A DNA stretch of 49,381 bases from assembly GCA_002343505.1 (NCBI GenBank), contig DDQZ01000006.1, forward strand, positions 1 through 49,381, in the 5' to 3' direction. Under the pieces are notes generated by a model. The model worked only from the letters and a program-made list of their open reading frames with translations, did no database searches and was not told the origin of the DNA. A program made the position numbers and the translations under genes. Positions 8,589 through 31,207 of this stretch are shown here, piece by piece (within the stretch, counting starts at the first letter, position 1; each line of letters begins with the position of its first letter). The DNA comes from Verrucomicrobiaceae bacterium UBA2429 (lineage in GTDB: Bacteria; Verrucomicrobiota; Verrucomicrobiia; Verrucomicrobiales; Verrucomicrobiaceae).

Positions 8589-8867
8589 ATGGCACGATCC
8601 CTCAAAAAAGGCCCCTACGTCCAGCAGGCCCTCCTTGAAAAGGTGGACAAGCTCAACGACGCCGGACAGAAGCGCCCGGTCAAGACATGGTCGCGCGGCT
8701 CCATGATCACTCCCGACCTCGTCGGCCACACCTTCCTGGTCCACAACGGCAAGGATTTCGTGTCCGTCTATGTCACTGAAAACATGGTGGGCCACCGTCT
8801 TGGCGAATTCTCCCCCACCCGCGTCTTCAAGAGCCACGGCGCGCACACCGTCAAGGCCGCCAAGTAA
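8589..8867 (+). CDS. rpsS: 30S ribosomal protein S19
   Basis: S19 pairs with S13 in the head of the small subunit. [19 protein letters not shown] at the N-terminus, [17 protein letters not shown] and [13 protein letters not shown] near the C-terminus are diagnostic; 92 aa is the usual length. Normally rplV follows at once; here a 786-base gene for an exported coiled-coil protein is placed between them. Confidence 0.98.
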
Positions 8868-8887
8868 TCCGACTTTCCACGAATTTC

Positions 8888-9673
8888 ATGCACCGCCAAG
8901 TCCAGCGCGCCATTCTGTCCGCCCTGCCGATTCTCTCGGCTTGGCTGGCACTGCCGCGCGCGCATGGGCAGCAGTCTTTCGAAATCCAGGAGCTCCACAC
9001 CACGCTCCAGGTCGCCGCCCAGAAAATCCAGGCGCTGGAAGCGCGCCTCGCCGCCGCCGAAAGCCGCAATGAAGCCCTCGCGCAGAGTGCGGCGGCCGCC
9101 AACCAGGAGGCTGGAGAACTCAAAGAGCGGCATGACCGCCTGCGCGGCTTGCTCGAAGGCCTGGGCATTGCGGCTCTGGAGAACAACCAGGACCAGCTCC
9201 AGGAGCGCCTTCTGACCGCGCTTGGCGACCTTCGAGTCTCCGAAGCTTCAAGGCGCGATCTCGCGGACACTTTGATGGAACTGGCCGAGGTGTCCATCGA
9301 GTTCGCCCGCCAGTCGAAAGGCGTCGAATCCGAAGCCTCCGACCGCCTTTCCAAAACCCTCGCCCGCGCGGAGGAAGTGCTGGTGGCGGCATCATCCGCG
9401 CCGCTGGAGGCTGAGCCTGCCAACCTGCAGGACGCCCGGGTTGTCAGCCTCAAACCCGAACTCGGCATAGCCGTCCTGTCCATCGGCTCGAAGGATGGGG
9501 TCAAGCCCGGCATGCCCTTTGAAGTCTTTCGCGAAGACAAACCCATCGCCAAAATTTTAGTCACCGACGTCCGCCGCTCCGTCTGCGGGGCGGTCGTGCA
9601 GGAACTGGCCAGCAAAGCCGATCCTGTCAAAGTCGGAGACAAGGGAAAAGTGGACATCAACCGATCATTCTAA
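8888..9673 (+). CDS. Exported coiled-coil protein inside the S10 operon, unknown function (261 aa)
   Basis: Not a ribosomal protein and not one I recognise. It starts with a signal peptide (RAILSALPILSAWLALPRA, cleavage near AHG-QQ, residue 27). Next comes a long Ala/Glu/Leu/Arg-rich heptad region at about 32-165, predicted by eye to be coiled coil. After a short linker (about 170-178) a compact beta-rich domain follows (about 180-261), with VVSLKPELGIAVLSIGSKDGVKPGMPFEVFR cut here for length into its key features: a G-x-DGVKPGMPF turn and a closing VKVGDKGKVD. That pattern recalls small periplasmic beta-barrel domains such as those in FlgT- or MreC-like proteins, but this is inference. It begins 20 bases after rpsS and ends 3 bases before the rplV ATG, on the same strand, so it must be transcribed and probably translated with the ribosomal genes. 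Confidence 0.85.
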   Translation: MHRQVQRAILSALPILSAWLALPRAHGQQSFEIQELHTTLQVAAQKIQALEARLAAAESRNEALAQSAAAANQEAGELKERHDRLRGLLEGLGIAALENNQDQLQERLLTALGDLRVSEASRRDLADTLMELAEVSIEFARQSKGVESEASDRLSKTLARAEEVLVAASSAPLEAEPANLQDARVVSLKPELGIAVLSIGSKDGVKPGMPFEVFREDKPIAKILVTDVRRSVCGAVVQELASKADPVKVGDKGKVDINRSF

Positions 9674-9676
9674 GTT

Positions 9677-10072
9677 ATGGAAGTGCGTTCGATCTACAAA
9701 CACGCCAGAATCTCCTCGCAGAAGGCACGCCAAGTCACGCGGGCCATCACCGGCCTGCCTGTCTCACAGGCGCTGAGTGTTCTGGACTTCACCCCCAAAA
9801 AAGCCGCCTTCCTGGTTGGCAAGGTTCTGCGCTCGGCGATCGCCAACGCTGAAAACAACCACGAGCTGGCAGCCGACGAACTTGTCGTGCTCAGCGCCGT
9901 CGCCACCCCCGGCCCCACGCTCAAGCGCATCATGCCCCGCGCCCGCGGCTCGGCGGCCCCCATCCTCAAGCGCATGAGCCACATCACCGTCGTCATTGGA
10001 GCCAGGGAGGAAGATGAGCAGAAGGACGAGCCGAAGACCTCCAAAAAACGCAAGGCCGCCGCCGCTGAATAA
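9677..10072 (+). CDS. rplV: 50S ribosomal protein L22
   Basis: L22 lines the exit tunnel with an extended beta-hairpin. The family core ISSQKARQVTRAITGLPV, LDFTPKKAAFLVGKVLRSAIANAENNH and the hairpin PTLKRIMPRARGSAAPILKR are clear. At 131 aa it is longer than the ~110 aa norm because of an acidic/basic tail (EDEQKDEPKTSKKRKAAAAE). The ATG is only 3 bases after the exported coiled-coil gene, so its translation is probably coupled to that gene. Confidence 0.97.
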   Translation: MEVRSIYKHARISSQKARQVTRAITGLPVSQALSVLDFTPKKAAFLVGKVLRSAIANAENNHELAADELVVLSAVATPGPTLKRIMPRARGSAAPILKRMSHITVVIGAREEDEQKDEPKTSKKRKAAAAE

Positions 10073-18442: not shown

Positions 18443-21400
18443 ATGAAAGCACGCCAGAAAGCCAGCCGCAGTCTAAAGATTCTCCGAGCGATGGGGCTCA
18501 TTTCACTGCTCCCAGCCGCCGCCAGCGCCCAGTCGCTGTGGCTTCCATTTTCAGGAGGAGTTTATTCTTGGGCGGACACCGCCAATTGGAGCACCGGCTT
18601 GGTCCCGTCCGGCGCGGGTGAGTCGGTTTCCTTTGGCACGATTCATCAGAGCCAGACCATCACTCTCGATGCCAACCGCACGCTCGGTCTCTTGTCATTT
18701 TCCAATAGCTCGCGTGACTTCATGATTTCCGGCAGCCAGTTGATCCTCGACAACAACGGTCTCGGCTCGGTAATAAGCAGCAGCGGCATCGCCACCAACC
18801 TTATCACCTCGGCCGTCGTCCTGGCTGACGATGGTGGCAACACCTTCAACATCACGGATGGACGCGTCGTTGTCACCGGCGTCATCAGCGGTAGTAATGA
18901 ACTCATTAAAACCGGCAACGGAACCCTCGTTCTGAGCCCTTCTGCGTCCAACACTTACACGGGTGTGACGACACTCAATGCCGGCATCACCCTTGCCCTG
19001 CCGCAGGGAAACACGCTCAATATTCTCGGTGCCACAGCCGCAGGCCAGCACACCGTCATCAATGCCGGCGGCACCTTCGCCACAACCAATGATCTCGACA
19101 ATGCCACCGCAGGACTTCAGACCACCGGCGGCTGGGGCACGGTCAGCGAACCCTTCACCATCAATGGCAACGGCCACCTTGGCATGGGCGCTTTGCGCAA
19201 GATGACCGGTCGCGAGCAGGATACCCTTGGCGGCGCCATCACCATGGGCAGCGCCGCCCGCGTGCATGCTGACTACGGTACACTGGCCTTGTCGGGAGCT
19301 TTAAATGTTGCCTTCGATCTCTCGGTCAACGGCGCGGGTTTTGTCAATATCACCGGTGCCATGACAGGCGCCAACGCCATCAACAAAACTGGCATTGGCG
19401 GCATGCAATTGTCCAATATCACTGCGGGCCAGACCTACTCGGGTACAATCAATGTCAATCTGGGGGAATTACGTTCGAATACCGGAGTGGCTGACGCGGC
19501 ATTGAATCCGTATGCGGACATCACCGCTTTGAATCTTCGCAATTCCGCCCTTCGCATGAATTTCGGCAATACTGCGGGAACCGCCAATGACGGGCCGAAC
19601 AGCCGCTTCTCCACCACCGCCCCCATCTCCATGCGTGCCAGCTACATCTATCTGGACAACGCCTCCTTCAGCGGCACCTCCACCACATTCTTCGACTATG
19701 CCGTCGCTCAGGCATTCGGCACCACCACACTTGAGAGCGGCGGCAACAAATTCACCGTTCGCTCCGCGGATGCCGGCACCATCACCCTCACCTTTGCCGA
19801 CCTTGTTCGTTCCAATCCAGGCACCATGCTGGAGTTGCAGATAGACAATCTCGTCGGCGGTGCGACAGCCAACTGGGGCGCGTCCGCCAAGCATCGAATC
19901 ATCAACTCGGCCCTGGAGGCAGGCCCCACGGCGGTGCCATTCGTCGGCGGCTGGGCTTATTACGGCGCGGAGTTCCTTAAATACGTTCCGGTCGCCAGCG
20001 CCGGCCACGGCTACCGTCAGTTGGAAGCCGCCGATCAGGCCGTGGACACCGCTGAGGGCACCTGGGCATCGGGTCAGAACATCCGCATCACGAGCGGCAA
20101 CCGTGCCCTCCCGCTCGGCACCACCACGGTTCAATCCCTCAACATCCCCTCCACCACCGCGCGCACGCTTTCCGGCGCCGCTGGCTCCACTCTTGTCATT
20201 GAGTCGGGCGGCATCATCACGGGAGGGGGCGTGACCCACACCATCAGTGTGCCAAATCTCACTGCCGGCGCGGGTGACAATTATCACCTGAATCTCATCA
20301 CTTGGAACTCGAACACCATTCGTTCCTCCATTGTGGACAATGGAGGCAATCCCGTCTCCCTCGTCAAGGCAGGCGGCAACACCACCTCCTTCCTCTCCAA
20401 CAACACCTACACAGGCAGCACCATCCTCGTCGAGGGCATGTTCCGTGACATCATTGGCGCGCGCAACATCACCGCGCTGGGTGGTGGCAACCTCAACATG
20501 GTGGGCGATGCCGACTCCCAGGGAACCTACGAGACCGACCGTCATTTCACCCGCGCTCTCGGCGCGGGTGTCGGCGAGGTGCAGTTCACGGGCGGCGGCG
20601 GCTTTGGCGGCGGCAGCGTCGGTTTTTCAGCCTATGGCGCGCCTATCAATGTCAACTTTGGCGGTGCTGGAGACGAGATCACCTGGGGGAGCACCCACTT
20701 CAATCCCGGCATTTTCACTCTCAACGGCGGCAACGGCACCCATGTCGTCACCCTCGTCAATGACCTCAACCTCGGTGGAGAGCAGCGTGTCATACGCCTG
20801 GACGGCAGCGCCTCCGGCGGCAACCGCCAGGTGCTTGGGACCATCAGCGGAGACGTCACCAATGGCGGCATCGTCCGGCGTGGTGGTGGCGTGCTTTTCT
20901 TTGATGACGCCAAGAGTTACACCGGCGGCACTGTCATCCAGGAAGGCGAGCTTTGGCTGCGCAATGGCACCGGCACCGCCGGAGCCAACGTCAGCGGCAA
21001 CGACATCATGATCGGTGCCGCTTCCCGCCTGAAGATTGACGATCCCGCCTCCATCGGCTCCCGGCAGTGGATTGTCATGCAAAATCAGGATGACAACAAC
21101 GCCTCCGCCATCGCCTTCGGTCCGGGATACGGTGACGGCTCCAAAATTGCCTTCCACAGCCGTGTTGGAGCCAATAGCGCCAGCGTGCCACAGACCGGAG
21201 CGTATGACATTTTTCTTGCCAACCAGCAGACGGGCAATGACCGCCGCAACCGCGTGGCGGTGCAGATCAGCGGTAATCACGACTTCTCCACGGATGTCCT
21301 CGGCCAGATCAAGACGGTGGCCCCCGATGTCGAGGCATGGCTGGGCGCGGACACCGCCAACGGCACCTACACCGGCACAACCCTCACCGCCACCGGGCGC

Positions 21401-24400
21401 ACCAAGACTGGCGGCAATCAGGCTTTCCGCCTCGGCACGGGGGGCGGCGTGCTTACCATCGCCAACGAAAATGTTTTGAGTGGCGCGTTTCCCCTGATCG
21501 TCGGCGCCGAGGACCAAACCGGACGCGTCAACATTGGCGGCCAGGTTTACTTGCCCAAGGCGCAGAATTACAGCGGCACATTGACCGCCACCATCGGCAC
21601 CGCCGTCACCTACGGCACCCACATCGGCTCCGGCGGTGTCTTGATTGTGGGCCAAAACGGCGCGCTCAACACCGCCAACAACACCATCCTGATCCGGTCT
21701 GCGGAACTGCGGCTCAACATCAGCACGGAGAACTCTTTCCTTGGCGGCGTGGACACGCAGTATGCGGCACGCAATATTGATGTGCGCAGCGGCACGACCA
21801 CCCTGCGCACGATCCCTATCTCCGGCGGCAGCAACAGCGTCCTGAAACTGAACAACTTCACCATGCGCATGGATGACGCCGACCGCACCTTCCAGGCCCT
21901 GACCATCGGCACCCACTATACCGCCACGCACTTTGACGGCACGGCGGAGCTTCAAAACGGAACAACCGCCCGCCAGGCGATCCTAAACGTCGGAGCCGAC
22001 AACAGCTACCAGTCCGGTGTCGGTCTCCTCGTTTTCAATAATGTGATCAGTCAGACGGGCACGGGCGCTGTCCATATTCTCAAACAGCTTGGCGGTCCGC
22101 TGATCCTCAATGCCGACAATACCTACAACGGCGAAACCCGGATCAACCAGGGCCGTCTCGTGCTCGGTCATGAAGGCGCCGCAGGCAACGCCGGCTCCCA
22201 GATTGTGATGCAGAACAATAGCGACCGCCGGGCGGATGTCGAGATCCGCCTCGACGGTGCCGGCCCTTTCACCATCAACAACACCATCAGAACCACTGGG
22301 GGCAACGACAACTCAACAAAAGTCATCACTGTCGGATCTTACGATGGCAGCAGCGTGGACAAGGAAGTTCGCATCACCAGCCTCGTCAGCAATGCGGGGG
22401 GGGCTGCCACGACCGGTAATACCGCCTCGGGTCTCTGGTTCGACGGTTTCGGCGGTTACCGCACCACCATCACGGGCGCCACCACTTTGACCCGCACTCT
22501 GACCGACTTCCGCACCCGCGGCGCGTTGCTGACGCTTGAGGGCGTCGTCGACGGAGCCGGGGCCTTGCACAAACTTGAGCAGGGCACGCTCGTCCTTTCC
22601 AACAACAACACCTATACCGGCGCCACCAACATCTACAACGGCTACGTCGTCGCCGCTCATGACAACGCTTTTGGCGGAGCCGTGAGCGCGATCACATTCA
22701 ACGGTGGCAGCTTCGCCCAGGTGCTCGCCTCGGGCACCCGCACCATCAGCCGGGATTTCACCAACAGCGCCACCGGCAGCACCCAGACCATCGGCGGTCT
22801 GGACGCTGGAGCCAAGACCTTCAGCGGAGCCATGACACTGACCAGGGGCGTTAACGTGTCTTCGACCGGCGGCGATGTCACCTTCAGCGGTGTGCTTAGC
22901 GCGGCGGGTGGTGTCAACAAAGTTGGCACTGGACTCGTGGTTCTTTCAAATGCCAACACCTACGCGGGTGGCACCACCGTCAGCAACGGTACCCTTGCCG
23001 GCATCGCCCAGAGCTCCGGCAGTCCGTTTGGCGCGGGTGCGTTCACCGTCACGGATGGCAATTTGATCGTCCAGGGCATTGCGGGCGCGACCAACACCAC
23101 GACCACGGGCGCACTGACAGTCAATGGCGGCAACGCCACAGTCGCCGTCAACGCGCCGGCGGGTAACACGCAGTTCACCCTTGGCTCGCTGACGCGCTCC
23201 GGCAACAGCACTCTTATCTTCAAAGGCGGCAGCACCAATATCGGCGCGCCAACCAGCGAGATCATCTCTTTCACCTCCGGGCCCGCGCTCACCAATGGCA
23301 TCATCGGCGCATGGGCGGTGATTGGCGGCCCTGGCACGGGTGACAACTCCGCTCATTACGCGGGCTTCTCGGGTGGCAATGTCGTCACCGCCACTTATTC
23401 CGGCACTGGAGACCTGGACGGACTCACTGGCTCCAGCGACGTTTGGGACGCGGGCGCCACGGCCAGCACGTTGACTGCGAACCGCAGCGGTTACGCCTTT
23501 CGTACTGCGGCGAATGTCGCCCTGGGCACCAACACCTTGAGCCTCGGAAATGGCGGCCAGGCTGGCATCATCCTTAATAACGGAGCGGACATCTCCGGGG
23601 GTTCCATCGCCCTCGGCACCAATGCGCTCAGCATTTACACAGACAATGCCGCAGTTTCCAGCATCAGTTCGGCGATCAGCAACTTCCGCGACAATCTTAA
23701 CAACACCCTGGGTTCGGGAGATCCTGTCGCTCCCTCCGCTGCCGCGCTCATCAAATTCGGCCCCGGCACTTTGGAGCTTTCCGGCGCGAACACCTTCCAG
23801 GGCAATGTCCAGGTCAACCAGGGCACTCTCAGCCTCACGGCTCCGAATGTCATCCCCAGCTTCACCAACCTGAGCGCCCAAACAGCCTCCATCGTCACCA
23901 TCCGTCCCGGCGCCACCGTGGCTCTCAATGGCAACGACCAGGAATTTGGCAACCTGACTGGCTCCGTGGTGGTCAGCCCGGTGCTCAACACAGCGGGCGT
24001 GCTCAATCTCGATTCCGCCACGCTCACCGTGGGCCGCCAGGGCAGTAATGCTTTGTTCTCAGGCCAGATCATCGGTGATGCCAGTTCGAAGCTGGTCAAA
24101 ATCGGTGGCGGCCGCCTCACCCTAGACAATTGGGACCCTGCCATGCCGAACTCCCTCGGCACGCTGGAGATTCTCCAGGGCGTCGTCCAGTCCCGCCTCA
24201 ACGACAACTCCTGGGCGCAGCCCATCGGGTTCGCCAACTCCATCCCCAGCTCGACCGAAATCCTCCTGCGCGGCGGTGAGTTTGAGGCCTATGTGAACGG
24301 CGACAACGTCAGCAACTTCCAGTTCATCCCGATGGGCCATAGCTTCACGGCGCGTGACGGCAACTCGGTCCTTGACACCAACCGCTGGCAGGGAGGCGCG

Positions 24401-27400
24401 GCCAACAAGATCATCGGCTTCAACAACCTGACGGTTGACAAGAACATCCTCACCATCACCGGCGGCAATGCCATCTATCCGCGTTTTGACGGCACTTTCA
24501 CCATGACTGCGAACGCACGTCTCCAGGTTGACGCGCCGGTCATGCTTAACGGCACAATCACCGGCCATTACACGCTTACAAAGACGGGCGGCAGCAATTT
24601 GGAAATCGGTGGCGACAACAGTGCCTGGAACGGCGGCACGACCCTACACGATGGCGTGCTGCTTTTCGGCACCCGTACTCCCGAGGTGGCCGAGCGCTAC
24701 ATGGCCGGCACCAACCTCTTCTCCTACAGCGCCACGGCAAACCTCGGAACGGGGGACATTACCGTCAATCGCGGGACTCTCATTCGCATCAACGCGCCTT
24801 CCAACATCCTCAAGGATGACGGGCAGCGGGTTCTGCTCTTCGGCGACGCGCGCAACACGTTGCCGCGCGTGGACATCAGCGTGGACGCGCCTTTGACCGA
24901 CTACTCTCTGCGTTCCACCGGCAACGGTGCCCTGACCATCGGCATGAGGGACGGCATGTACAGCCAGGCGCTGGATCTTTCCCTGATTGGGAACGGCAAG
25001 TGGCTGCTGGGCGCGTGGGAAACGACGTGGTACACACCCGAGACACTTCAAGCCGGTGTTGACAATGCTTTCCGTTTTGGCGGAGCCAATGGCGTCTTCT
25101 CTGTCACCACTTCGGGATCTCTTTCAGGACCGTTCAGCCTTGAAGTTGGCGCGGACATGCTGCCGAATGGATTCGCCATCACAAATGGCAACGGGCAGCT
25201 CCGCCTGTATGGAGATCAAAGCTATACAGGCAACACCATCATTCGCCGCAACCGCGAAGGTGGCTCAGTCCAGAATTTCCTGGACATCTCCGGCTCCAGC
25301 CAGTCGCCAGTGTTTGATGTTTATGGGCGCCTCATGGCCCGTGGAGCCGGTCGTTTCACCAATCCTGACGGAACCCAGAAAAACACCGTCAACCTTTATC
25401 CGGGATCCATTCTGCGCCTGGACTACAGCATGGATGTCGCGGACCATCAGACCATCAACCGCCTGGCCAATTCCAACCTGGGCTTGGCGATTCACGAAAA
25501 CAAATGGGGTGATACCGAGGAAATGCTGCTGAATGGAGCTACACTCAATCTGGTTTCCTCCAGCGGGCGTGTGAATCGTGAAGTTATCGGTGTTCTCGAG
25601 GTCAGGGGCGGGGCTGCGCTACTTCTTGAACGCAACACCACCAATGGCCAGATCATTCTGGAGACTCCCAGTATCACCCGCACCGGACAGGCCACATTCG
25701 ACGTGCGTGAAAATGCCGACGAACTGGGTCGTGTGGACCTGCAAAGCCAGAAGTTCTTCATCAACAACGGCAGCGGCATGGAGGACGCCCAGGGGCTGCT
25801 GCCTGTGTGGATGATCAACCCGACCCGTAACACCTTCCTCACTTACAACGATGATCTTGGGGTGCAAAACGCCGCTTTTACCAGCAGCACCACAGCCGCG
25901 GGCACTGGAGCTACCTTCCTTGGCGGGCTCACCAGCGCCTCGGTGGCCAGCTACGGTGTGGGCGTTGGTGATGCCACTCTGACCGGCACAATTGATGTCC
26001 ATGCGCTTCGCATAAGTCACGAGGCGGCCAGCAACGACACGGTCCTGACCGGTGGTCAGATCAACATCCATAGCGGCGGGCTCATCGTGGACAACCGTGA
26101 CAATGCGCGGGTGAACTTCGACACCACCGCAGTCTATTTCGGCGACGGCGTGACACCGGGGGAAGGCATCATCTACTCCGACCAGAACAACATCACCACC
26201 CGCATGGGCGGAGTGGTCACTGCGGATGACCTGACCATGCATGGCGCGGGCAACCTCCAGCTCACCAACACGGCCAATGTCATCACCGGCAACATCCAGA
26301 TGAACGGTGGACGCCTGTTCCTTGACGGCGTGGGCACGGCCGGAACGAACACAACCATCACCCTCAGCGGCAACTACCTTCAGAACAACGACGGCAACCA
26401 GATGCCGGAACTGTACCTGCGCACGCTCAATGCCACGGCCACCTGGACCAACGGCATCGTCGTGGCGGAGAATGTTCCTTATGTGCGTGTGCTGGGTCAG
26501 TCCCTGGACGGCACTTCCCTGACCACCGTCCGTAACCAGACCATTCCTAGTTTGATGGTCGAGGGCACAAGCACGCTGCAAGGCACGACCTTCATCTTTG
26601 GCACGACCAGCAACTCGAACAACGCCAACAACTACAGCCTCATTGTCAGCGGGGCGACCACGCTGGGCGGCACAGCCCCTATCGGCTTCCGCATTGAGCG
26701 TGGCGGCACCAACGTTCAGGGTGGTGGTGGTTTCATGACGCTTGCGGGAGCCGTGACCGGCACCGCTCCCATCGTCAAATCAGGTGACGGCTACCTTGTG
26801 CTCCAGGCCAGCAACGGAGCCACATTGGGCAGCCCGGTCACATTGAACCGCGGCATTATCCGCGGCCAGGGCAACAACGCCAACAACTTCTTCGGCACGG
26901 GGGATTACACCCTGAACTTCGGCACGATTGAGATCCTGCATGACGGCGCTGGCTCCTATTTCAACTCGACCGGCCAGGACATCTTTGTCAACGGAGCGGT
27001 GAGCATCAACTCCAACCGTAACGGCGGCAGCGCCGCGGCCAACTACACCATCGGCCTCAACAATGGCGGCAACACCCTCGTTACCGCCAACGGCGCGCAT
27101 CTGCGTTTCAGTGCCGCGTCCTTCGGTGACGACTTTATCCTGGAAAGCAGGCTGATCGTCAACGACAGCGCCAGCATCTACCAGGACAACAACGAGATTT
27201 TCCTGAACGACCAGCTTGCGGGTGGTGGCCGCCTGACCCGCACGGGCATCTGGCACATGTACTTCAACAATCCTGCCGCCAACGTGGACTGGACCGGAAC
27301 CCTGGACCTGCAGGCCGGCACCGTGCGTGTCCTTCAGGACGCGGCGACCCTTGGAGGAGTCGGCAGCTCCATCATTCTCAATCCTGCCGCCCAACTCAGC

Positions 27401-30400
27401 GTGCGGTCCGTGGCAAACCTGGGTACTGGTAATGGCATCAGCGAACTGCGCACCACCAGCATCACCAGCATGCCGGTGCTCGGCATCGGACTGGCGGCGA
27501 ACTTCGCCTCCGTCCGCGCACACTACGATGGCTTGACTGCAATAGGCACACGCAACGGGGTTCTGGCACTCGATGGCAGCATCACAGTTGCAGTGGACCC
27601 CGACATGGCCAATTTCCAGAACGGCAATTGGTTCTTTGGTGGTGCCACCGGGAGCGGCACTCTGAGCGCGAACTCTGTCGCTCCCTGGGGGCCTGGAGGG
27701 AACAAGTTCCTCATCGGCGGCGGTAGCGGCACCATCACGCTGAACCCTGCGACCGCTGGAGCGCAGTTTGCCGCCACAGTTGAGGTTGAAACTAGCAATC
27801 AGATGATCATCGGCGCTGCTGACACGGTGTTCGGGCATGGCACCGTCACCTTTGGATCCAACAGCAACAACACCTATGAGGGAGGCACTTTGGTTACTCG
27901 CAGCCGCAACATGGACGGCGGTTACCGCGCCATGTCGGTCAGCATCCAGGCCGGCAGAGCCACGGACACCACCTTCCGCACGCCGCTGGGCAGTGGAACG
28001 GTGGATGTGTTCGGTGAAATCCGCATCGAGCAAGCCAACGGCACCGCGCGCAACGCCGCAGATGCCAACGCCAACACCTGGGTTTTCCATCCCGGCAGCC
28101 GCATCCGTTTTGACAATGACGCGCCTTTCTCCACCGCAGGCACCGAAGGACGCTGGGCGGACAATGTCGCCATCGCGCTGAACGCGACTGTTCTGGAGAT
28201 GTACGGCGATGGAGCCACCCACCCATACAACACCGAAACTGTCGGGGCCATCTCGGTGGAGGGCGGCTCCGAGGTCGTCGTGCGCCGTCGCGGAGCCTTC
28301 CTCGCAGAGATCATCGCCTCCGGCAATCTGACCCGAGTGGGCACAGGCACCCTGATGCTGACCGGCATGGACACCAACACCAACACGGTGACGGGACTGG
28401 GATCAAACGCCGCTACGACAGCCATGCGTTTCAAAGTGGCCAACGGCGCTTCATTGATGAACAACAATATGGTGGATCCCTGGATCACCGATCGTGTGGG
28501 CAATCAATTCCTCAAATACACAGATGACGGCTTCGCGCCTATCACGCTTGGCGGATCTCCGGCAAACTACCTGGACATCGTCAACGCGGCTGCCACCACC
28601 CTGACAGCGGGTGGCAATATCCCGCTGAATGACGGCACGGAAATCCTCAGCGCAACCGGCACCTCCAACTACACCCTGGCCACCGACCTGAACCTCTATG
28701 CGATGCGTTTGGCGCGCGATATCAATGTGGCGGCCAACGGCACGGCCAACAACATCTTCATCCGCAGCGGCGGTCTCATCCAGGTGGCCAACACGCCCAC
28801 CATCAATGCCAGTCTGTTCTTCGGTCCCGACGCCCTCGCGGACGGCACCAACACGGGTGACGCGCTGATCTGGGCCTCCAACAACGTCCTCCAGATCAAC
28901 GGCAAAATCCATGCCACCAATGTCATCAAATCCGGCACCTCCGAGCTCTACATCCGCAGCGCCCAGCCGCAGTTCACTGGCGATTGGGTGGTCAATGGCG
29001 GTCGCATCCGCTTCCTGACACCCGGTGCCCAGGGCGGCGGCGAGGTCATCCTTAACGGCAGCCGAATGAACGACCGCGACAGCACCTACAACATCACAGA
29101 GGTGCTCTACGGCTTCAACAGCGGCAGCCCCGATCTCTTCGACTGGAACGGCGGCAAGATCACTGCCTATGACCATAACCGCGTCTTTGCCAACACCGCC
29201 AGCGACCGCCTGCAGCAGCTCCCCGCCATGGACCTGCGCACCACCAACGCGGTGGCCGGCACGGGCCAGGCCGGTTTGTTGTATTATCAAGTGGACGGGG
29301 CGCGCACAACCGTGCGCACCGGAGTCGTCACCCTCTTTGACCACTATCAGATTCATGTGGAGTCCGGCACATATAGCACTGGTTCTACTGCGGGTGTGCA
29401 GTTTGGTTCCGGCACAGGAGCGGGCGGTTTGAATAATGGCGGCCTGTTTGACCTGCGCAAAGTGGGTGACGGTGTGCTGATCCTTGGTGACAACAGCGCC
29501 AGCTTCACCGGCAACCGCAGCATCATCATCGGCGAGGGCGCGGTGCGCGTGCTGCATGGCGGCGCCTTCGGTGGAGCAGGCAATACGGGCAACATCGAGC
29601 AGGGCGGCGCGTTGGAAATCGCCGTCGCCGGCTGGTCCCCCGCCGCCACTCTTGTGCAACAGCCTGGATCAGCCGAGCGCTGGGCTGTTAATGGCGCGCG
29701 TGCTGGTGATGTCACGATGGCTCCGGGAGTGCATCTCCAAATCATGCACAACCAGACCGGCACTCAGACTGTGACCATGGACGGAGGCTCCATCATGGGC
29801 TACCTGCCGCGTGATTGGGACCATGTGTCTGTCATTCACCGCCTGGGATCCGGTGTCACGATCAACCTGGCTTCCGACTCCTATCTCGGCCAGCCCTACG
29901 TTGCCTCCAACAACTCCTTTTGGGACACGGCGCGCATTTATGACCTCGGCAAATTCAATCAGACCAATCTCAACAACCCGCTCGATCAGGGCCTGCGTGG
30001 CAGCTACCTGCAGATTGACGGTGTCATCACAGGCCCGGGCGGCCTGACCAAGCTGGGACAGGACATGATCGTGCTCAATGGCGCCAATACCTATGAGGGG
30101 GCGACGATCGTTGAAAACGGCATCCTGCAAATCGGCCGGAACAACGCTCTGCCGGTGGGCACCGACCTGAGCACGGAAACCAGCAGCGGCATGTTCGACC
30201 TCAACGGCTACAATCAGACGGTGGCCTCGCTCTCCGGCGACCACGGCAGCGTCAACAACGGCGCCTTTGACTTGAACACCCTCACCCTCAACCAGAGCGC
30301 CAGCACCACCTACGGCGGCCAGATCAACGGCAACGTCAGCGTGGTGAAGGACAACACCGGCAGCCTGACGCTGACCAGCGTCAACGGCATGAGGGGCGAC

Positions 30401-31207
30401 CTCGTCATCAGCAACGGCAGCGTCATTCTCACCGGCGCGGGCTCGGTCAACGAGGCGCGCGGCATCCAGATCGGCGCGGGCAAGGTCTTCGATGTCAGCG
30501 GCGTGACCGGCGGCATGTACAGCTACGACGGCCGGATCAGCGGCGGCGGCGTGGGCGCGTTGAGGGCGGACAACGCCACCCGCGCGCAAATCCTCGGCAA
30601 CATCACCGTCACCGACAACGTGGGCACCATCGCACGGCAGGGCAGCATCAGCCCCGGGAACTCGGCTGGGCACCTGTATGTGAGCGGTGATCTCACACTG
30701 GGCGGCGGTCTCTGGGGCACGAGCACGAAGACCGAGCGCCTGACGCTGGAACTGTCCGCGCCGACCTCCACGCTGGCGGCGCTGGGCTGGGACGGCAGCA
30801 ACGTGGCCGACTGGCTGGAAAACAGCTCCCCGGATGTGCTCAACGGCTTGGCGGGCGACCTCAGCGGGCACGACTATGTGAACGTGGGCGGGGAGTTGAC
30901 GCTCAACGAGCACGGCGGCATCGGCGTGACACTCATCAACGGCTACCAGCCGCAGTATGGGGACGTGTTCAACCTGCTGGACTGGACGAGCGTGAGCGTG
31001 GGCAGTTTTGACGCGGGACCGACACCGCGCAGCGGCGGGGAGCTGGGTTACGACCTGAACCTGCCTGACCTGACGGCCTTCCAGCTCACCTGGCACACGG
31101 ACCTGTTCGCCGACTACGGAGTGATCTTCGTGGTGCCCGAACCCGGGCGCATGATGCTGCTGTTCTTCGGCCTCACGGGACTGCTCTTCCGCCGCAGGCG
31201 CGCCTGA
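18443..31207 (+). CDS. Giant PEP-CTERM protein with autotransporter-associated beta-strand repeats (4254 aa)
   Basis: A very large exported protein, probably a beta-helical surface or matrix component. It has a signal peptide (residues 1-29, ASA-QS). A W-x-NW-plus-P domain opens the mature protein (WADTANWSTGLVPSGAG), as in verrucomicrobial/planctomycete members of this family. About 18-20 copies of the repeat K-x-G-x-G-x-L-x-L...NTYTG-x-T...G-x-L-x-L follow; clear ones are near residues 154, 640, 811, 1213, 1375, 1491, 1769, 2045, 3671 and 3869. The C-terminus is a PEP-CTERM sorting signal (VPEPGRM, LLFFGLTGLLF, RRRR; residues 4230-4254), which an exosortase would process. There is no autotransporter beta-barrel and no exosortase in the window. 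A longer-period architecture repeats three times (see findings). The start has no Shine-Dalgarno. Confidence 0.93.
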   Translation: MKARQKASRSLKILRAMGLISLLPAAASAQSLWLPFSGGVYSWADTANWSTGLVPSGAGESVSFGTIHQSQTITLDANRTLGLLSFSNSSRDFMISGSQLILDNNGLGSVISSSGIATNLITSAVVLADDGGNTFNITDGRVVVTGVISGSNELIKTGNGTLVLSPSASNTYTGVTTLNAGITLALPQGNTLNILGATAAGQHTVINAGGTFATTNDLDNATAGLQTTGGWGTVSEPFTINGNGHLGMGALRKMTGREQDTLGGAITMGSAARVHADYGTLALSGALNVAFDLSVNGAGFVNITGAMTGANAINKTGIGGMQLSNITAGQTYSGTINVNLGELRSNTGVADAALNPYADITALNLRNSALRMNFGNTAGTANDGPNSRFSTTAPISMRASYIYLDNASFSGTSTTFFDYAVAQAFGTTTLESGGNKFTVRSADAGTITLTFADLVRSNPGTMLELQIDNLVGGATANWGASAKHRIINSALEAGPTAVPFVGGWAYYGAEFLKYVPVASAGHGYRQLEAADQAVDTAEGTWASGQNIRITSGNRALPLGTTTVQSLNIPSTTARTLSGAAGSTLVIESGGIITGGGVTHTISVPNLTAGAGDNYHLNLITWNSNTIRSSIVDNGGNPVSLVKAGGNTTSFLSNNTYTGSTILVEGMFRDIIGARNITALGGGNLNMVGDADSQGTYETDRHFTRALGAGVGEVQFTGGGGFGGGSVGFSAYGAPINVNFGGAGDEITWGSTHFNPGIFTLNGGNGTHVVTLVNDLNLGGEQRVIRLDGSASGGNRQVLGTISGDVTNGGIVRRGGGVLFFDDAKSYTGGTVIQEGELWLRNGTGTAGANVSGNDIMIGAASRLKIDDPASIGSRQWIVMQNQDDNNASAIAFGPGYGDGSKIAFHSRVGANSASVPQTGAYDIFLANQQTGNDRRNRVAVQISGNHDFSTDVLGQIKTVAPDVEAWLGADTANGTYTGTTLTATGRTKTGGNQAFRLGTGGGVLTIANENVLSGAFPLIVGAEDQTGRVNIGGQVYLPKAQNYSGTLTATIGTAVTYGTHIGSGGVLIVGQNGALNTANNTILIRSAELRLNISTENSFLGGVDTQYAARNIDVRSGTTTLRTIPISGGSNSVLKLNNFTMRMDDADRTFQALTIGTHYTATHFDGTAELQNGTTARQAILNVGADNSYQSGVGLLVFNNVISQTGTGAVHILKQLGGPLILNADNTYNGETRINQGRLVLGHEGAAGNAGSQIVMQNNSDRRADVEIRLDGAGPFTINNTIRTTGGNDNSTKVITVGSYDGSSVDKEVRITSLVSNAGGAATTGNTASGLWFDGFGGYRTTITGATTLTRTLTDFRTRGALLTLEGVVDGAGALHKLEQGTLVLSNNNTYTGATNIYNGYVVAAHDNAFGGAVSAITFNGGSFAQVLASGTRTISRDFTNSATGSTQTIGGLDAGAKTFSGAMTLTRGVNVSSTGGDVTFSGVLSAAGGVNKVGTGLVVLSNANTYAGGTTVSNGTLAGIAQSSGSPFGAGAFTVTDGNLIVQGIAGATNTTTTGALTVNGGNATVAVNAPAGNTQFTLGSLTRSGNSTLIFKGGSTNIGAPTSEIISFTSGPALTNGIIGAWAVIGGPGTGDNSAHYAGFSGGNVVTATYSGTGDLDGLTGSSDVWDAGATASTLTANRSGYAFRTAANVALGTNTLSLGNGGQAGIILNNGADISGGSIALGTNALSIYTDNAAVSSISSAISNFRDNLNNTLGSGDPVAPSAAALIKFGPGTLELSGANTFQGNVQVNQGTLSLTAPNVIPSFTNLSAQTASIVTIRPGATVALNGNDQEFGNLTGSVVVSPVLNTAGVLNLDSATLTVGRQGSNALFSGQIIGDASSKLVKIGGGRLTLDNWDPAMPNSLGTLEILQGVVQSRLNDNSWAQPIGFANSIPSSTEILLRGGEFEAYVNGDNVSNFQFIPMGHSFTARDGNSVLDTNRWQGGAANKIIGFNNLTVDKNILTITGGNAIYPRFDGTFTMTANARLQVDAPVMLNGTITGHYTLTKTGGSNLEIGGDNSAWNGGTTLHDGVLLFGTRTPEVAERYMAGTNLFSYSATANLGTGDITVNRGTLIRINAPSNILKDDGQRVLLFGDARNTLPRVDISVDAPLTDYSLRSTGNGALTIGMRDGMYSQALDLSLIGNGKWLLGAWETTWYTPETLQAGVDNAFRFGGANGVFSVTTSGSLSGPFSLEVGADMLPNGFAITNGNGQLRLYGDQSYTGNTIIRRNREGGSVQNFLDISGSSQSPVFDVYGRLMARGAGRFTNPDGTQKNTVNLYPGSILRLDYSMDVADHQTINRLANSNLGLAIHENKWGDTEEMLLNGATLNLVSSSGRVNREVIGVLEVRGGAALLLERNTTNGQIILETPSITRTGQATFDVRENADELGRVDLQSQKFFINNGSGMEDAQGLLPVWMINPTRNTFLTYNDDLGVQNAAFTSSTTAAGTGATFLGGLTSASVASYGVGVGDATLTGTIDVHALRISHEAASNDTVLTGGQINIHSGGLIVDNRDNARVNFDTTAVYFGDGVTPGEGIIYSDQNNITTRMGGVVTADDLTMHGAGNLQLTNTANVITGNIQMNGGRLFLDGVGTAGTNTTITLSGNYLQNNDGNQMPELYLRTLNATATWTNGIVVAENVPYVRVLGQSLDGTSLTTVRNQTIPSLMVEGTSTLQGTTFIFGTTSNSNNANNYSLIVSGATTLGGTAPIGFRIERGGTNVQGGGGFMTLAGAVTGTAPIVKSGDGYLVLQASNGATLGSPVTLNRGIIRGQGNNANNFFGTGDYTLNFGTIEILHDGAGSYFNSTGQDIFVNGAVSINSNRNGGSAAANYTIGLNNGGNTLVTANGAHLRFSAASFGDDFILESRLIVNDSASIYQDNNEIFLNDQLAGGGRLTRTGIWHMYFNNPAANVDWTGTLDLQAGTVRVLQDAATLGGVGSSIILNPAAQLSVRSVANLGTGNGISELRTTSITSMPVLGIGLAANFASVRAHYDGLTAIGTRNGVLALDGSITVAVDPDMANFQNGNWFFGGATGSGTLSANSVAPWGPGGNKFLIGGGSGTITLNPATAGAQFAATVEVETSNQMIIGAADTVFGHGTVTFGSNSNNTYEGGTLVTRSRNMDGGYRAMSVSIQAGRATDTTFRTPLGSGTVDVFGEIRIEQANGTARNAADANANTWVFHPGSRIRFDNDAPFSTAGTEGRWADNVAIALNATVLEMYGDGATHPYNTETVGAISVEGGSEVVVRRRGAFLAEIIASGNLTRVGTGTLMLTGMDTNTNTVTGLGSNAATTAMRFKVANGASLMNNNMVDPWITDRVGNQFLKYTDDGFAPITLGGSPANYLDIVNAAATTLTAGGNIPLNDGTEILSATGTSNYTLATDLNLYAMRLARDINVAANGTANNIFIRSGGLIQVANTPTINASLFFGPDALADGTNTGDALIWASNNVLQINGKIHATNVIKSGTSELYIRSAQPQFTGDWVVNGGRIRFLTPGAQGGGEVILNGSRMNDRDSTYNITEVLYGFNSGSPDLFDWNGGKITAYDHNRVFANTASDRLQQLPAMDLRTTNAVAGTGQAGLLYYQVDGARTTVRTGVVTLFDHYQIHVESGTYSTGSTAGVQFGSGTGAGGLNNGGLFDLRKVGDGVLILGDNSASFTGNRSIIIGEGAVRVLHGGAFGGAGNTGNIEQGGALEIAVAGWSPAATLVQQPGSAERWAVNGARAGDVTMAPGVHLQIMHNQTGTQTVTMDGGSIMGYLPRDWDHVSVIHRLGSGVTINLASDSYLGQPYVASNNSFWDTARIYDLGKFNQTNLNNPLDQGLRGSYLQIDGVITGPGGLTKLGQDMIVLNGANTYEGATIVENGILQIGRNNALPVGTDLSTETSSGMFDLNGYNQTVASLSGDHGSVNNGAFDLNTLTLNQSASTTYGGQINGNVSVVKDNTGSLTLTSVNGMRGDLVISNGSVILTGAGSVNEARGIQIGAGKVFDVSGVTGGMYSYDGRISGGGVGALRADNATRAQILGNITVTDNVGTIARQGSISPGNSAGHLYVSGDLTLGGGLWGTSTKTERLTLELSAPTSTLAALGWDGSNVADWLENSSPDVLNGLAGDLSGHDYVNVGGELTLNEHGGIGVTLINGYQPQYGDVFNLLDWTSVSVGSFDAGPTPRSGGELGYDLNLPDLTAFQLTWHTDLFADYGVIFVVPEPGRMMLLFFGLTGLLFRRRRA

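Follow-up and report, generated by a model that had tools for sequence, protein, structure and literature searches.

The neighbourhood of rpsS and rplV, the genes of ribosomal proteins S19 and L22, is among the most stable gene adjacencies in bacteria. TsaP and FlgT are envelope proteins, MreC has two barrels, and small barrels are found in RNA-binding proteins too; SecM regulates the translation of secA in cis. The signature protein CT421.2 of the Planctomycetes–Verrucomicrobia–Chlamydiae group is lineage-specific and conserved, and an excerpt of its source gives it about 53 to more than 80 residues and no assigned role (PMC3444138). In this study, a 49,381-nucleotide stretch of Verrucomicrobiaceae bacterium UBA2429 (assembly GCA_002343505.1, contig DDQZ01000006.1, positions 1 to 49,381; hereafter the window) was analysed for a gene between rpsS and rplV, here named X (8888–9673, + strand), which encodes a 261-residue protein with the features of an exported coiled-coil and beta-barrel protein. 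X resembles CT421.2, as far as that excerpt goes, in its lineage-specific conservation, and its long forms exceed CT421.2 in length. X has long belonged to the S10 operon of Verrucomicrobiota, probably since the ancestor of the phylum, and some lineages have lost or shortened it; we hold its anatomy and ancestry as described below with high confidence. The best explanation overall is an old S10-operon gene whose product, co-expressed with the ribosomal proteins, would serve in the periplasm to scaffold or assemble the envelope, a reading advanced tentatively, as a little short of evenly balanced. No description of X was found in open-licence PMC papers.

X starts with ATG 20 bases after rpsS (8589–8867, + strand; Pfam PF00203, E 6.8e-36) and ends 3 bases before rplV (9677–10072, + strand; PF00237, E 4.8e-35); the initial annotation had described this frame and its spacing, and both were confirmed by the open reading frame (ORF) call and the Pfam searches. 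Homologues, purifying selection and the conserved position likewise support X as a gene. The closest homologue, X itself apart, was 73% identical over the full length (best 120 of 287 protein matches). Matches were obtained in 54 of 56 genomes of relatives and in all 43 of good quality, the own genome being counted in both, and orthologues in 51 of 55 with the own genome excluded; of four genomes that are 74–81% complete, two (G006, G031) gave weak paralogue-type matches only and two (G014, G016) gave none. The order S19, X, L22 was kept in all 29 loci of the genus (L004–L032). In 18 of 19 further genomes from the order, covering six families (f1–f6), the arrangement was rpsS-X-rplV; in the nineteenth (L114) X was followed by L22, and no S19 match was present in the 491 bases of contig upstream. 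X has native composition: its G+C content at third codon positions (GC3) was 0.750, where 251 background ORFs from the same genome averaged 0.755, and its codon adaptation lay at the 74th percentile. The initial annotation had suggested absence from relatives and atypical composition as signs of a recent insertion; since X is kept in place throughout the order and has native GC3, this origin was rejected. The ratio of nonsynonymous to synonymous substitution rates (dN/dS) was estimated from 30 members of the genus, among them the window, plus a single further member of the family, with saturated-synonymous pairs set aside. Its median was 0.116 for X (155 usable of 465 pairs), compared with 0.101 for L22 and 0.062 for S19. 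An opposite-strand ORF (8851–9660) was set aside in view of the clear selection on the + strand frame.

The spread of X was surveyed across the phylum. Named loci were the 80 best of 588 for rpsS, of which 74 allowed both genes to be measured; by title, the 80 contain no Planctomycetota or Chlamydiota, the nearest phyla. The rpsS–rplV gap was at least 300 bases in 19 of the 24 Verrucomicrobiota loci, every one holding X or a short form of it. Such a gap occurred in none of the 50 loci from other phyla (one of which, L080, is titled only 'bacterium'), where the maximum was 101 bases, too small for X. The long form was found in Akkermansia (L041, L044, L045, L053, L054), Akkermansiaceae and Roseibacillus, and the short form in L051, L057 and L065. 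Long forms have about 172–321 residues, with one of 558; short forms (105–130 residues) consist of the signal-peptide-like segment and the barrel, with no coil. The barrels of the two forms were aligned with hhalign at a probability of 98.5 (E 2.3e-15 over 78 columns), and the model of the short form has six strands identical in order to those of the long form. Short-form holders include Ruficoccus and Opitutaceae (best 120 of 305 protein matches); among the matches listed, one partial protein is named Pseudomonadota, possibly from a mislabelled genome. The 558-residue protein (L254 983–2656, − strand, genome G178), in an rpsS–rplV gap of 2082 bases, carries a long Pro/Ala/Ser/Lys-rich extension preceding the coil.

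Within the class, L22 was matched in 138 of 141 genomes and the slot between rpsS and rplV was inspected in 91, one to several per family; some named loci and surveyed genomes are apparently the same organism (e.g. L030/L033, L014/L034, L035/L126). The slot held a long form in 51 genomes, a short form in 7, no insert in 31 (gap at most 148 bases) and a gap lacking recognisable X in 2. A hand tally of the 47 families, mostly with few genomes each, gave 23 with the long form, 6 with the short form, 17 without X and 1 unclear; f17 mixes short and none, and f19 long and none. The short-form rows of the class belong to one supported 23-row clade of the ribosomal protein tree, which includes the mixed f17, and an additional short form occurs in another class (L245). 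The two unrecognised slots, of 552 bases in G104 (L143/L253) and 313 bases in G079 (L324), gave no remnant of X with the proteins of six relatives each (E >0.06), and no barrel match was found anywhere in either genome; both were tallied as without X and are possibly eroded copies of it. Two 0.9 Mb genomes, G071 (L189) and G079, are symbiont-like by size and lack X, and G137 (2.5 Mb), with the same genus code, has the long form.

In other classes of the phylum, 30 of 76 genomes were inspected, again one to several per family, and X lay directly upstream of rplV in 17. An X-like gene stood between rpsS and rplV in 6 genomes, and rpsS adjoined rplV without X in 10. In the remaining 14 pieces no rplV followed rpsS, a contig end explaining two of these. 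At those 14 rplV loci an X-like gene (hydrophobic start and coil by eye, barrel by profile) was immediately upstream in 11, at a distance of 12 to 117 bases, and none was immediately upstream in L317, L319 and L320. With contig ends excluded, 12 genuine breaks are left, and X stayed with rplV in 9 of them; in L310–L323 the break falls between rpsS and X/rplV, and X-rplV-rpsC is located apart from rpsS. Since all broken-operon genomes are placed inside the clade that contains all 33 other-class rows, the breaks may represent one or a few events. Kiritimatiellia are among the named holders of the other-class form in protein searches. Pairwise distances of X and of the ribosomal proteins were correlated (r = 0.75 over 66 rows, a value that none of 1000 permutations reached). 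On a FastTree tree of 153 rows (17 with less than half of the columns filled), presence or absence of X required 9 changes over the 126 rows with a state, a count that cannot separate gain from loss. One origin followed by several losses is favoured because the slot and the domain are the same and X occurs in all five deep ingroup branches.

The X protein is composed of five parts, all encoded on the + strand. A signal-peptide-like segment (residues 1–28; 8888–8971), which is short, hydrophobic, fast evolving and modelled with low confidence (predicted local distance difference test score, pLDDT, 55–59), is followed by a first coiled-coil helix (29–91; 8972–9160). A hinge (92–100; 9161–9187) opens with the nearly invariant L92-G93 of the alignment and breaks the helix in the model. 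The second helical region (9188–9394) comprises helices 101–142 and 148–169 and includes the nearly invariant R107 and L108, and the C-terminal part (178–261; 9419–9670) is a six-stranded beta-barrel domain. The AlphaFold2 model (mean pLDDT 86.2) places the six strands at residues 183–255 with pLDDT mostly above 90, in agreement with the beta-rich C-terminal domain proposed in the initial annotation; the low predicted template modelling score (0.42) makes the placement of the coil relative to the barrel unreliable. The long heptad region that had also been proposed was upheld for two of the three helices. The best hydrophobicity period was 3.50 residues in both 29–91 and 101–142, with moderate support (81 and 130 of 2000 shuffles equally strong), and no heptad periodicity was detected in helix 148–169 (742 of 2000 shuffles equally strong). 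In the best of seven registers, 83% (29–91) and 67% (101–142) of the a/d positions were hydrophobic, against 43% overall.

By a hydropathy rule, the sole criterion applied, 74 of the 77 X proteins, among them short forms, have a signal-peptide-like N-terminus; starts were taken mechanically, and the three failing proteins may have misassigned starts. This result agrees with the signal peptide first proposed, and on this basis X would be exported, by Sec, to the periplasm. By part, dN/dS was 0.064 for the coil (81 pairs), 0.107 for the barrel (216 pairs) and 0.73 for the signal segment (282 pairs); with the signal segment least conserved and the coil and barrel strongly conserved, selection acts on the mature protein. 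It had also been proposed that the signal peptide could target the transcripts to the membrane; ribosomal proteins or SecY would then be synthesised there. The near-constant presence of the segment and a secY farther downstream on the same strand are in line with this, but a segment that is kept and yet varies most freely, next to a constrained coil and barrel that a signal peptide does not explain, together with the many genomes without X, makes such targeting of S10 mRNA very improbable, and the proposal was not upheld.

Searches with the single X protein against Pfam, NCBIfam, Rfam and PDB sequences returned coil-type or sub-cut-off matches only; the top NCBIfam row, for SMC, was a match of the coil far below the cut-off (E 9.7e-4; 17 bits, cut-off 567). 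By barrel profile, the C-terminal part of TsaP (3jc8) was matched at E 5.5e-5 over 40 positions, and Pfam FlgT_C (PF16538) weakly, with 7 of 31 members and a best E of 0.053. X shares this C-terminal similarity with TsaP, but has no LysM match in Pfam and differs in architecture and gene context. Unlike FlgT, X has a coiled coil in place of the N-terminal and middle domains (no Pfam match to them at E 1), and its neighbours, here and in the named and class loci that hold X, are rpsS and rplV instead of flagellar genes. The identification of X as FlgT was rejected on both counts, no other FlgT domain being found by Pfam and no flagellar genes nearby.

A cytoplasmic ribosome-associated or assembly factor, in which the N-terminal hydrophobic stretch is no signal peptide, would suit the operon context, and the top fold matches of X include cytoplasmic-side F1 and V1 barrels. 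Against such a factor stand the hydrophobic N-terminus of the 74 rows, the membrane anchors of the paralogues inspected and the lack of any similarity to ribosomal or assembly factors in Pfam, NCBIfam and PDB sequence searches. The fold searches likewise gave no known ribosomal or assembly factor, a match to which would, by the initial annotation, have refuted its reading; a cytoplasmic role is regarded as highly unlikely.

MreC (PF04085) resembles X in layout, with an N-terminal hydrophobic segment, a coiled coil and a beta barrel, and is among the Foldseek matches of X (2j5u, E 8.2e-4; 6zm0, E 7.9e-3). X has one barrel instead of two, is not next to mreB, and gave no PF04085 match at E 1 and an NCBIfam MreC match at E 0.065 with 12.4 bits, far under the cut-off of 385. 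X might nevertheless take the place of MreC, or of the periplasmic chaperone Skp, where one of these envelope factors is missing. The shared layout, the structural and NCBIfam matches, the source name MreC carried by one X homologue among the matches listed, and the presence of X in all three class genomes without an MreC match (G042, L145; G130, L146; G111, L172, 80% complete) speak for this possibility. On the other hand, of 72 class genomes 69 have MreC and 71 have Skp/OmpH, whether or not they hold X; the only genome of the 72 without an OmpH match (G107) also lacks X; and the own genome keeps a canonical MreC on another contig, adjoined by an ORF that we take by eye to be MreB-like. No OmpH (PF03938) match appeared among the Pfam matches of X at E 1. 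Because X co-occurs with both factors, substitution is most unlikely despite the three MreC-less holders.

Two tandem coiled-coil proteins with an X-type C-terminal barrel are encoded elsewhere (L003 289–1074 and 1117–2187, − strand, genome G000 contig C79); each carries, by eye, a membrane anchor at the N-terminus, and comparable single or tandem genes occur in other Verrucomicrobiota (L272, L273, L274, L278, L279, L282). These paralogues share the coil and the X barrel (hhalign probability 99.1, E 1.7e-18) and differ from X in a membrane anchor that, by eye, has no evident cleavage site, and in their genome location. A barrel match elsewhere was found in 27 of the 31 class genomes without a slot insert, and five of these were read and aligned.

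Spacing on both sides of X is tight and conserved, with medians of 19 bases before and 18 bases after X over 77 rows. No promoter-like site was detected on the + strand between 7600 and 11500, in what is a weak test, and the two + strand terminator-like sites (10915 and 11257) both lie outside X. From the conserved spacing and the absence of promoter-like sites we infer that X is co-transcribed with its neighbours, and the tight spacing on both sides gives good grounds for expecting it to be co-expressed with the ribosomal proteins. The spacing thereby strengthens the earlier proposal that expression of X would follow ribosome synthesis; X may also, as had been suggested, tie envelope growth to growth rate.

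The same spacing bears on a regulatory reading in cis, in which the export of X, or its stop codon beside the start of rplV, tunes rplV translation. X ends 3 bases from rplV in the window, in 66 of 77 rows the distance is at most 50 bases, and in most lineages with a broken operon X still directly precedes rplV. However, the distance varies from 0 to 97 bases over the rows and from 12 to 117 in broken operons, and many class genomes have no X at all. Conservation resides in the coil and barrel, whereas the C-terminal tail, the site of arrest motifs, is variable in sequence and length. A SecM-like arrest peptide was rejected since the alignment contains no conserved C-terminal stalling motif, and cis regulation in general is judged improbable.

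In the mechanism that we favour, X would be translated from the ribosomal-protein mRNA and exported by Sec to the periplasm, where its long coiled coil would form a rod headed by a six-stranded small barrel and may mediate oligomerisation. There it would help to scaffold or assemble the cell envelope, in an amount that tracks ribosome production. This role is suggested by the combination of a putative periplasmic rod with a barrel head and of sequence ties to TsaP- and FlgT-type domains, and is a tentative assignment, slightly less secure than the overall reading. A further step, that X in the S10 operon is a physical growth-rate link, with the scaffold made in fixed ratio and the position before rplV beneficial and selected since the phylum ancestor, is doubtful.

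In the main competing explanation, X would be a useful envelope protein whose location has no regulatory meaning: a duplicate of a membrane-anchored paralogue would have landed there a single time and remained, as the operon seldom rearranges. This explanation, a frozen accident, is somewhat unlikely, less so than the growth-rate link. It draws support from the paralogues elsewhere, with the X barrel and a similar coil, and from the operon remaining intact after losses of X; it accounts less readily for tight spacing across the phylum and for X staying with rplV in most breaks. Rearrangement is rare here and the breaks are possibly few events, which weakens the argument from spacing and breaks against an accident. 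The envelope-scaffold reading is weakened by the fold comparison, in which the X barrel resembles the FlgT C-terminal domain and F1-ATPase barrels match about equally well; we read the F1-ATPase matches as a small-barrel arrangement that is common, and not as a sign of kinship.

Among the gene names used for the window, only those of S19, L22, SecY and the M24 peptidase rest on family searches; S3, L2 and the remaining neighbours are presumed from operon order. Near the ribosomal cluster, a giant autotransporter-like ORF of 4254 residues (18443–31207, + strand) begins 328 bases past the map-like M24-peptidase gene, which itself follows secY, and contains five passenger-associated-transport repeats (PATR, PF12951, E 1.8e-26).

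X should be accessible to genetics. A saturated transposon library and targeted deletion are reported for Verrucomicrobium spinosum (PMC12283558), which may carry X; Akkermansia does carry it. The coupling of envelope and ribosome synthesis is an open question of growth physiology, and an exported protein kept phylum-wide in the S10 operon would be an unexpected candidate for it. X is also a possible gene-order marker for Verrucomicrobiota, and if its location is a frozen accident, it would be a clear case of how long such accidents last.
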